A DNA stretch of 53,605 bases, taken from NCBI GenBank assembly GCA_012839215.1, contig DUNV01000022.1, positions 1 through 53,605 on the forward strand, in the 5' to 3' direction. The notes below the pieces were generated by a model, which saw only the letters and a list, made by a program, of their open reading frames with translations, ran no database searches and had not been told where the DNA came from. The stretch comes from Bacillota bacterium (GTDB lineage Bacteria > Bacillota > Dethiobacteria > DTU022 > UBA8154). The stretch's first letter is position 1. The number at the start of each line of letters is the position of its first letter. Position numbers and translations under genes: made by a program. Positions 25,079 to 53,605 of the stretch are shown here, one piece after another.

Positions 25079-25190
25079 AGCAGAGTAGGTGTCATGCGTT
25101 AAGTGCTAAGGGATGGGAAGTTGCCCTTAGACGAAAGATGCCCTGTTTTTAGAAAGGGGCATTTGCGATGTGGCTCCGCGTCCACTGCTA
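25079..25190 (+). ncRNA. Tetrahydrofolate (THF) riboswitch upstream of folT
   Basis: AGCAGAGTAGG...GCGTTAAGTG-CTAAGGG-atgggaagttg-CCCTTAG-ACGAA...TCCGCGTCCACTGCT; P1 AGCAG/CTGCT closes. Confidence 0.8.
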
Positions 25191-42643: not shown

Positions 42644-42689
42644 TCCCCTAATTGAACATTTCAGGATATCTAAAGCTAATGAAAGGAAA

Positions 42690-42996
42690 TAGTAGGCTGG
42701 AAAGAAGGATTCAGAGAGCTGGGCGGGGGCAAAAAAGCCTGATGCTGTGAGCCCGGCATCCAGATCACCAGTTGAATGGCTCCTAGAAGCGTCTGGCTGA
42801 AACTTTGTTTGGGAAAGTAGGCCAGAACGGGATTCCGCCGTTAAAAGGAACGGGTATCGGAAAGCTTGGAAGGCTTTTAGGCGAGCAGGAAAAGCAATCC
42901 CGTACTTTGTCTAAAAGAGGCCCCCCTTTTTTTAGGGGAGCAAATTTGGGTGGCACCACGAGAAAACCCTCGTCCCTGGACGAGGATTTTTATTTT
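42690..42996 (+). ncRNA. T-box leader, Trp (UGG) specifier
   Basis: AGAGAG stem I start, GAA-TGG-CTCC specifier (TGG 42777-42779), AAAGTAGG, T-box GGGTGGCACCACGAG (42948-42962), terminator CCTCGTCCctGGACGAGGATTTTTATTTTTT. Confidence 0.93.
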
Positions 42997-43040: not shown

Positions 43041-44420
43041 ATGGCAATGAAAAAAATATTTTTAACAGAAGAGGAGATGCCTAGAAAGTGGTATAATATC
43101 CAGGCGGATATGCCCACACCTATGCAGCCTCCGCTGCATCCCCAAACGCAAAAGCCCATCGGGCCGGAGGACCTGTCTGCCATTTTTCCCATGAACCTGA
43201 TCGAGCAGGAGGTCAGCACCGAGCGCTGGATCGATATCCCGGAAGAGGTTTTGGAAAAATATTTTATCTGGAGGCCATCCCCATTACAAAGGGCGGACGC
43301 CCTGGAAAAATATCTAGACACCCCGGCCAAAATATATTTTAAAAACGAATCTGTCAGTCCGGCCGGAAGTCATAAACCAAACACGGCTATTCCCCAAGTT
43401 TACTATAACAAGGTATCCGGCATCAAAAGGCTGACTACGGAAACAGGTGCCGGCCAGTGGGGTTGTGCCCTAAGTCTGGCCTGCACATTATTTGGCCTGG
43501 AATGCAAAATATACATGGTCCGCTCTAGTTATGATCAGAAACCTTATCGCCAGTTGATGATGAAAACATGGGGCGGGAACTGTGTGCCCTCCCCCAGTCC
43601 GGATACGGCTTTTGGCCGCAAAATGCTGGAAGATGATCCTGGTTGCACAGGAAGCCTGGGGATTGCCATCAGCGAGGCGGTCGAGGATGCCATCAGCTCG
43701 CCAAATACCCGTTATTCGCTGGGAAGCGTTCTTAACCATGTTATGACGCATCAATCGATTATCGGCCTAGAGGCACAAAAACAGATGGAAAAGGTTAACG
43801 AATATCCTGATGTGGTTATCGGCTGTGTGGGGGGCGGTAGCAATTTTGCCGGGCTATCTTTTCCCTATGTCAGGGATAAAATTTTTGGCAAGGAAATGCG
43901 TATCGTGGCTGTTGAACCCACTGCCTGCCCGACCATAACAAGGGGGCCCTTTGCTTATGATTATGGGGATACGGCAGCGATGACCCCGCTGCTGCCCATG
44001 TTTACCTTGGGGCATGGATTTATTCCCGAGCCTATCCATGCGGGAGGGCTGCGTTACCATGGTGTCTCCCCACTGATGAGCCAATTGGTTCTTGACGGAC
44101 TCATCGAATCAGAATCCTGTAACCAATTGCAGGCCTATGAGGCCGGGTTGATTTTTGCCCGGACAGAGGGTCTCGTCTGTGCCCCGGAAACTAACCATGC
44201 TATTGCTGCCGTAATTGAAGAGGCTAAAAAAGCCAGGGAAGAAGGTAAAGCCAAGACCATTCTTTTCAATTTAAGTGGCCATGGGCTGATGGATCTGACC
44301 GGCTATGACTCTTTTCTTGAAGGGAAGCTTACCGATTATTCCCTCCCTGAATCCGAACTTGAAAAGTCTCTTGAGGCATTGAAAGCTTTTCCCAAGCCTG
44401 ATATCCTACCCAGAAAGTAG
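43041..44420 (+). CDS. TrpB2-type tryptophan synthase beta chain-like PLP enzyme
   Basis: [18 protein letters not shown]...TETGAGQWG...[11 protein letters not shown]; long N-terminal extension typical of TrpB2. Confidence 0.92.
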
Positions 44421-51912: not shown

Positions 51913-52203
51913 TTGTTGGATATTACCCGGGAAGAAATTATTCAGGCGTCGTGGGATGTTCGCCTGGAATTAACGCCGGAAGAGATGGAGGAACTTGAGA
52001 AACAGGTGATGAATTTGTTCAGGCAGGCAGATTTCCTCGCAGATGTGGCACTCGATGATCTTGAGCCTTCAAGTTTTCCCCTCGTGCAGGAAAATGCTGT
52101 CAGGGATGATACCCCCGCTCCTTCTTTATCACGGGAAACTGTTTTGTCAAATGCTCCTGAAGTCGAATCGGTATATATACAGGTACCGAGGATCGTTGAA
52201 TAG
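51913..52203 (+). CDS. gatC: GatC-like Asp/Glu-tRNA amidotransferase subunit C, divergent
   Basis: LTPEEMEELEKQVMNLFRQADFLADVALDDLEPSSF...AVRDDTPAPSLSRETVLSNAPEVESVYIQVPRIVE. Confidence 0.8.
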   Translation: MLDITREEIIQASWDVRLELTPEEMEELEKQVMNLFRQADFLADVALDDLEPSSFPLVQENAVRDDTPAPSLSRETVLSNAPEVESVYIQVPRIVE

Positions 52204-52226
52204 GTAAAAGAAAGGAGGTTAATAAT

Positions 52227-53605
52227 TTGGATTCACACCAATATGCAGTTCAAAAGCTTGCCGAAAAGGTTAATACCAAAGCAATTACCCTGCAACATCT
52301 AGCCGGGGACATCGCCCGCCGCTCTACTGCTGTACAGGAAAAATGTAATGCTTTCATAAATTTTGATCGCCAAATGTTGGAAAAAGGGGTAGACAATCTA
52401 CAGCAAAAAATTGATCAGAATAAATCATTGCCACTGGCCGGTGTTCCCTTTACCCTCTCCGATGCAATATGTGCCGCGGGGACAGTGACAACCTGTGCTT
52501 CAAGGATTATGGGCTCCTACAAGCCTCCCTTGGAGGCAACTGTAGCTCAAAGGCTGAAAGAGTGCGGGGCTATCCTCGTTGGTAAGACAAACATGGACGA
52601 ATTTAACCTTGGCACTGCCGGGAAAAATTCCCTCTTTGGGGAAATTAAAAATCCCTGGGATAAGCAGTATACGGCCGGATCGGGGGCGGCGGCAGCAGTT
52701 AGCGGCCAGGCGGCAAGTGTTGCCCTTGCTGCTGATGGGTGCGGGGAGCTGCGGCAAGCAGCTTCCTATTGTGGCCTCACCTCCCTGAAGCCTACATATG
52801 GCCGGGTTTCCCGCAAAGGGCTGGTCGATAGCGCACCCTCCCTGGAACAGATAGGTCTAATTGCCCCGACGGTTACCGATCTCGCAGCTGTTTTGGAACA
52901 TATCAGCGGTTATGATGCAGGAGATCCCACCTCATTTAGGCATGAGGTACCGGTATATATATCCTTGCTCGATGGCGAAGAGGATCAGGCGCTTAAGGTT
53001 GCAGTCCCTGAAAACTGGGCAGAAACTCCTTATCTAGAGCAGGGCATAAAGGAAGCATTTATTTCTGCGCAGGAAAATCTCAAGGTAAAAGGTTTTCAGG
53101 TTGAAACGGTAGCAATGCCGAATTTTTTCCATTCCCTCGTTACGACAACAATTATTCGTGCTGTGGAAACATTTTCCTCGCTGTCTAATTATGATGGTGT
53201 GCGTTTTGGGCTGAGAGCAGAAGGGGGCAGCAACCTTCAGGAAATGTATAGAAAAAGCCGGACCGAGGGTTTTGGCAGTAGGGTAAAGCAATTTATCACC
53301 TTTGGATCGCTTATTTCTGCTGGAAAATATTATGATCAAGTTTTCCAAAAAGCGCAAAAGATGCGCACACTTATTATCAAAGAACTTGAAAAGTGTCTAG
53401 AGGCTTATGATCTATTGTTTATTCCGACAGTACCTTTTGCTGCGCCATTGCATGTTAATGATAACGAGGGCGGATTTTTACCCGATCCGGCCGGCTACTA
53501 CACAGCAGCGGCAAACCTTGCCGGTTTGCCGGCAGTATCCTTCCCCATGCCTGCTGAAACTGCCCCAAGTGGATCGGCGGGCATGCAATTTATTGGGAAG
53601 GCCTG
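52227..53605 (+). CDS. GatA-like protein with substituted amidase triad (truncated at window end)
   Basis: Manual translation from TTG 52227, no stop to window edge: ...PLAGVPFTLSDAICAAGTVTTCASRIM...LVGKTNMDEFNLGTAGKNSLFG...NPWDKQYTAGSGAAAAVSGQAASVALAADGCGELRQAASYCGLTSLKPTYGRVSRKGLV... Clear GatA family match. Confidence 0.85.
   Translation, partial: MDSHQYAVQKLAEKVNTKAITLQHLAGDIARRSTAVQEKCNAFINFDRQMLEKGVDNLQQKIDQNKSLPLAGVPFTLSDAICAAGTVTTCASRIMGSYKPPLEATVAQRLKECGAILVGKTNMDEFNLGTAGKNSLFGEIKNPWDKQYTAGSGAAAAVSGQAASVALAADGCGELRQAASYCGLTSLKPTYGRVSRKGLVDSAPSLEQIGLIAPTVTDLAAVLEHISGYDAGDPTSFRHEVPVYISLLDGEEDQALKVAVPENWAETPYLEQGIKEAFISAQENLKVKGFQVETVAMPNFFHSLVTTTIIRAVETFSSLSNYDGVRFGLRAEGGSNLQEMYRKSRTEGFGSRVKQFITFGSLISAGKYYDQVFQKAQKMRTLIIKELEKCLEAYDLLFIPTVPFAAPLHVNDNEGGFLPDPAGYYTAAANLAGLPAVSFPMPAETAPSGSAGMQFIGKA

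Follow-up and report, generated by a model that had tools for sequence, protein, structure and literature searches.

Translation in many bacteria depends on GatCAB, an essential enzyme whose glutaminase and synthetase are, in the textbook account, coupled through an ammonia tunnel. The GatB reaction requires ammonia, and GatA is the usual source. The locus described here raises the question of what such an enzyme does when its GatA subunit has lost the residues for using glutamine. It lies at the end of the window, that is, the whole stretch of 53,605 nucleotides analysed, which is contig C143 of a draft genome (G000) of 2.06 Mb in 156 contigs, 97.4% complete with 0.18% contamination. A preliminary description had reported a GatA-like protein with the amidase triad replaced, next to a divergent GatC, and both observations held. 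The following elements were located:

51913..52203, + strand: gatC*, 96 aa, TTG start, the divergent GatC of a second-type operon (NCBIfam TIGR00135)
about 52211..52218, + strand: ribosome-binding site of gatA*, AAAGGAGG, recognised by sequence
52227..53605, + strand: gatA*, TTG start, open frame, 459 of 483 codons inside the window, with the GatA fold and without the glutaminase residues

Divergent as it is, gatC* passes the TIGR00135 gatC model with 53.1 bits against a cut-off of 47.1, and it stands upstream of nearly every gatA* examined. The gatA* frame leaves the contig end, and its remaining 24 codons were found at the start of contig C40 with an overlap of 8 bases. The joined gene terminates in ...KAWDEVKLLQASMLLKSENPPRFPSV-stop, in agreement with the intact copy of a sister genome, which terminates in ...KAFDEAKLLQAGLLLEKENPPRFPNV, and the join is backed on both flanks by synteny with the sister genome G002. 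Whether gatB follows, a point left beyond the contig end by the preliminary description, is answered on C40, where gatB* comes after gatA*; homologues of gatC, gatA and gatB thus stand in one operon in the order gatC*-gatA*-gatB*, as in a GatCAB amidotransferase. Elsewhere in the window there are a THF riboswitch (25079-25189, + strand, Rfam RF01831, 72.5 bits) and a T-box leader (42670-42980, + strand, Rfam RF00230, 102.5 bits), the latter lying upstream of a TrpB-like gene (43041-44420).

The comparison with S. aureus GatA (structure chain 2df4_A), which served as the residue reference, showed the following replacements in GatA*:

52458..52460, + strand: Ser78 in place of the catalytic Lys79 (by alignment); S, A, G, E or D at this position in the core clade (25 members)
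52671..52691, + strand: shortened cis-Ser loop, TAGSGAA against VPGGSSGGSA, with a 3-residue deletion common to the core clade
52746..52748, + strand: Glu174 in place of the nucleophile Ser178; conserved as Glu throughout the window's subclade (17 of 17)
53292..53294, + strand: Phe356 in place of the glutamine-binding Arg358 (by alignment; role from the equivalent yeast Arg, PMC4027206)
53493..53495, + strand: Gly423 in place of the glutamine-binding Asp425 (by alignment; role from the equivalent yeast Asp, PMC4027206)

In the aligned loop PGGSSGGS is reduced to AG-S-GA, and the deletion is longer in one relative (G023). The last two replacements are additional to the triad changes reported before; their equivalents in yeast GatA are the glutamine-binding R334 and D418 (PMC4027206). 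Neither the Lys/cis-Ser/Ser triad nor the Arg and Asp pair of GatCAB is therefore present in GatA*, and the same changes were found again in 17 aligned sequences, one per genome, which is far beyond chance. The 459 residues inside the window scored 386.8 bits with the NCBIfam gatA model TIGR00132, below its cut-off of 481.1. The GatA fold is predicted to be kept, the AlphaFold2 model (mean pLDDT 85.8) giving a TM-score of 0.93 to 2df4_A. With five glutamine-binding or catalytic positions changed, GatA* is left without a recognisable means of binding or cleaving glutamine.

A triad displaced to other positions was considered and rejected, since relatives have N, K or C where the loop retains a Ser (S152), which is thus not a shifted catalytic Ser. 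It might also be proposed that GatA* continues to act as a glutaminase or amidase through rebuilt chemistry that includes Glu174, a residue found in all 17 members of the subclade. This is very improbable: Lys79, the cis-Ser loop, Ser178, Arg358 and Asp425 are all altered together, and position 174 is Gly, Asn or Ala in the core GatA* proteins outside the window's subclade.

GatB* presents a different picture. It passes the TIGR00133 model with 580.3 bits (cut-off 314.8), aligns with the solved GatB proteins from end to end, the C-terminal tRNA-binding part included, and retains the kinase and transamidase residues E10, H12, K79, E125, D192 and E210 (S. aureus numbering). Among 112 columns invariant in canonical GatB, 92 are unchanged, a count slightly affected by one "canonical" row that is really a partial GatB*. 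From these features GatB* looks active, and by sequence a dead glutaminase part is kept beside an intact synthetase part, as in human carbamoyl phosphate synthetase I (CPS1). Substitutions specific to the clade (S. aureus numbering: P84 to A or C, R120 to Q, D274 mostly to N) were mapped as follows and are possibly tied to the entry of ammonia:

L055:160-1611, residues 86, 122 and 282: clade-specific positions of GatB*, carrying P84A/C, R120Q and D274N

The GatA* form was found in 17 of 40 genomes (that of the window and 39 relatives), as a gatC*-gatA*-gatB* operon. A class-wide search and a scan of 85,462 species genomes added at least eight further core members, among them soda-lake bins, one Dethiobacter bin and a genome in a single contig of 3,558,951 bases (G094), so that the core clade has at least 25 members, all of one class; among 399 genomes of the phylum no strong match was found outside that class. 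In a GatA tree calculated without the catalytic columns, the 25 core sequences formed one group with support 100, outside which the canonical GatA of those genomes fell; the triad-less form is thus a clade, a matter which the preliminary description had left for comparison. The GatB tree likewise placed the GatB* of the same operons in one group with support 100, together with two copies from Desulforudis bins. The GatA beside one of these copies (L068:3122-4543) has all three triad residues, and that beside the other (L065:7027-8511) has lost two of them, Lys to Ala and Ser to Ala; judged from their sequences, the two look like intermediate stages of triad loss. Two other families of the order, f3 and f5 (L168-L176), have a second gatCAB-like operon whose GatA is without the cis-Ser loop and often retains Lys79 or Ser178. 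The GatB of this operon groups as sister to the GatB* clade (support 90), and some of the genomes that carry it also have AsnRS and GlnRS. A possible viral link was dropped, the lone match on a viral contig carrying the canonical triad.

Pairwise comparison of the genes gave pN of 0.12-0.23 and pS of 0.45-0.71 for gatA*, with no frameshifts, and pN of 0.05-0.11 and pS of 0.48-0.74 for gatB*; pS is near saturation in several pairs, so that the exact pN/pS ratios carry little meaning. Since pN lies well below pS, both genes are under purifying selection, which bears out the earlier view that the gene is not decayed but codes for an intact pseudo-amidase. The window stops within gatA* and the genome is a draft of 156 contigs, which could invite the suspicion of a misassembly, or of an incomplete bin in which a canonical gatA was overlooked. 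Such an artefact is scarcely credible: the same features occur in at least 25 independent genomes, including the single-contig genome of 3.56 Mb, which holds the paralogue as well, and the sites that are free of gatCAB are spanned by continuous sequence in six genomes. As an account of the GatA* sequence itself, artefact is already refuted.

The gene content of G000 bears on the role of this operon. The genome holds one gene of the amidase family (PF01425), one with GatB_N, one synthetase gene of GluRS type and two of tRNA-synt_2; the last two, of the class-II Asp/Asn/Lys family, are taken from their lengths as AspRS and LysRS. No AsnRS or GlnRS was found over the cut-off in G000, and in six relatives with GatA* (G005, G013, G009, G015, G023 and G025) neither another GatA-like amidase gene nor an AsnRS or GlnRS over the cut-off was detected. 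The sole GlnRS well over the cut-off among the family genomes searched is that of G011 (contig C37:25857-27458). With AsnRS, GlnRS and any other GatB lacking from G000, the amidation of both Glu-tRNA(Gln) and Asp-tRNA(Asn) would fall to GatCAB*.

The absence of a gene from a draft genome is weak evidence, and for this reason the ligA site was examined. Canonical gatCAB follows ligA in five genomes (G001, G002, G006, G008 and G094). In G000 the corresponding contig, C67, reads purD-ligA-88 aa ORF-fumarase in unbroken sequence and contains no gatCAB, whereas the sisters G001 and G002 hold it at that place. Likewise, gatCAB was not found after ligA in G005, G013, G009, G015 and G023, where the sequence reads on from ligA. 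A canonical gatA hidden in an assembly gap is thereby ruled out for six genomes; in G025 the ligA contig ends. From the trees, canonical gatCAB was lost at least three separate times: in G000, in the group of G005, G013, G009 and G015, and in G023. The search for a second canonical gatA, proposed in the preliminary description, thus found none in G000, and its suggestion that the protein regulates a second GatCAB is unsupported, there being no second GatA or GatB and the canonical operon being cleanly absent from its ancestral site.

Ten relatives carry both operons and five the canonical one only, most of the genomes compared being metagenome bins; the two operons thus act as alternatives within the family. 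The presence of canonical gatCAB alongside in those ten genomes, together with the fixed GatB* substitutions P84A, R120Q and D274N, might be taken to mean that GatCAB* serves a different substrate as a specialised or regulatory complex and is not the general tRNA amidotransferase. We consider this quite improbable, because G000 and six relatives, all without AsnRS or GlnRS over the cut-off, yielded no GatCAB but this one, and because each well-covered genome of the family carries one of the two enzymes or both.

GatCAB* is best explained as a tRNA amidotransferase that probably depends on ammonia, carries a dead glutaminase subunit and has in some lineages replaced the glutamine-dependent enzyme. 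With glutamine out of reach of GatA* and no further enzyme detected for the two tRNAs, the simplest reading is that GatB* takes up free ammonia, for which GatFAB, human CPS1 and single-domain NAD synthetase offer precedents. Of the three roles proposed in the preliminary description, the one in which the protein scaffolds a GatB that works with free ammonia agrees best with the findings. GatB* would use ATP to phosphorylate Glu-tRNA(Gln) and Asp-tRNA(Asn) and then amidate both with the free ammonia of the cell; GatA* and GatC* would be retained as structural subunits and perhaps as an entry path for ammonia, to which Glu174 could attract ammonium. As to origin, a duplicated gatCAB may have lost its glutaminase, the copy later displacing the original in several lineages, a loss of the glutaminase step that anaerobes living at high ammonia could afford.

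Two observations stand against so simple a scheme: the substitutions P84A, R120Q and D274N could change the chemistry of GatB*, and the ten genomes with both enzymes are left unexplained by simple replacement. Moreover, CarA, a glutamine-dependent amidotransferase subunit, is present in G000, which shows that glutamine has not been given up overall. A general turn to ammonia with loss of CarA was dropped as an idea, CarA being present in G000 and in G094.

Alternatively, a separate glutaminase or another ammonia-producing partner may dock on GatA* and feed the tunnel. A glutaminase in a subunit of its own has a precedent in NAD synthetase (PMC3376133), and in G094 the position of the operon between carB and argF, inside an arginine operon, hints at another enzyme of amide nitrogen. 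Nevertheless a docked partner is unlikely, as in about 30 loci no neighbouring gene other than gatC*, gatA* and gatB* is common to the clade, and G000 has no second gene of the amidase family. The arginine operon of G094 (L157:609-14307) and that of a relative (L159) read argJ-argB-argD-carB-gatC*A*B*-argF-argG-argH. No carA adjoins carB there, although G094 has two carA genes at other places; the position between carB and argF is that of G094 and G095.

The habitats of the relatives may be considered next to the proposed use of free ammonia by GatCAB*. Some GatA* carriers come, according to their record titles, from the sediments of soda lakes, in which the high pH shifts the balance towards NH3. 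The names of the records matching G002, G005, G013, G009 and G025 fit a naming scheme for metagenome-assembled genomes from biogas reactors, one name stem being present in that study (PMC7038595). Dethiobacteria have also been reported to occur where total ammonia nitrogen is 3-4 g/L (PMC11932165). These ammonia-rich settings, recorded for relatives, fit the use of ammonia.

If the clade lives without the glutaminase, the coupling of glutaminase and synthetase would be dispensable in nature, and protein synthesis would be tied to ambient ammonia. GatCAB* would then serve as a natural probe for which residues of GatB and of the tunnel matter. It is tempting to go further, with somewhat less than even confidence, and to regard these as the first known bacteria that obtain all of their Gln-tRNA(Gln) and Asn-tRNA(Asn) through a GatCAB obligately dependent on ammonia. 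GatA would there have become a scaffold that gathers ammonium, its nucleophile exchanged for Glu174, and accurate translation would depend on ambient ammonia. No description of a triad-less GatA was found in the literature searched, which covered little subscription literature.

Canonical GatCAB (S. aureus 2df4, A. aeolicus 3h0l) is alike in operon, subunits, GatA fold, and the catalytic residues and full length of GatB; it differs in having the glutaminase and glutamine-binding residues of GatA, both of which are missing from GatA*, a protein that also falls under the gatA cut-off. In yeast mitochondrial GatFAB transamidation proceeds in vitro with NH4Cl once the glutaminase step is bypassed (PMC4027206), but there the triad is intact. 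Single-domain NAD synthetase (NadE) uses free ammonia in vivo, and its relatives use glutamine (PMC3376133); it has no glutaminase domain at all, and the ammonia form is thought to be ancestral in NadE, whereas in GatCAB* it would be derived. Human CPS1 is an amidotransferase that retains a dead glutaminase domain and uses external ammonia (PMC4655335). The two differ in that fold and substrate are unrelated, and that one Cys was lost in CPS1 and the whole site in GatA*; if the proposal is true, GatCAB*, with its own dead glutaminase part retained, would be the tRNA counterpart of CPS1.
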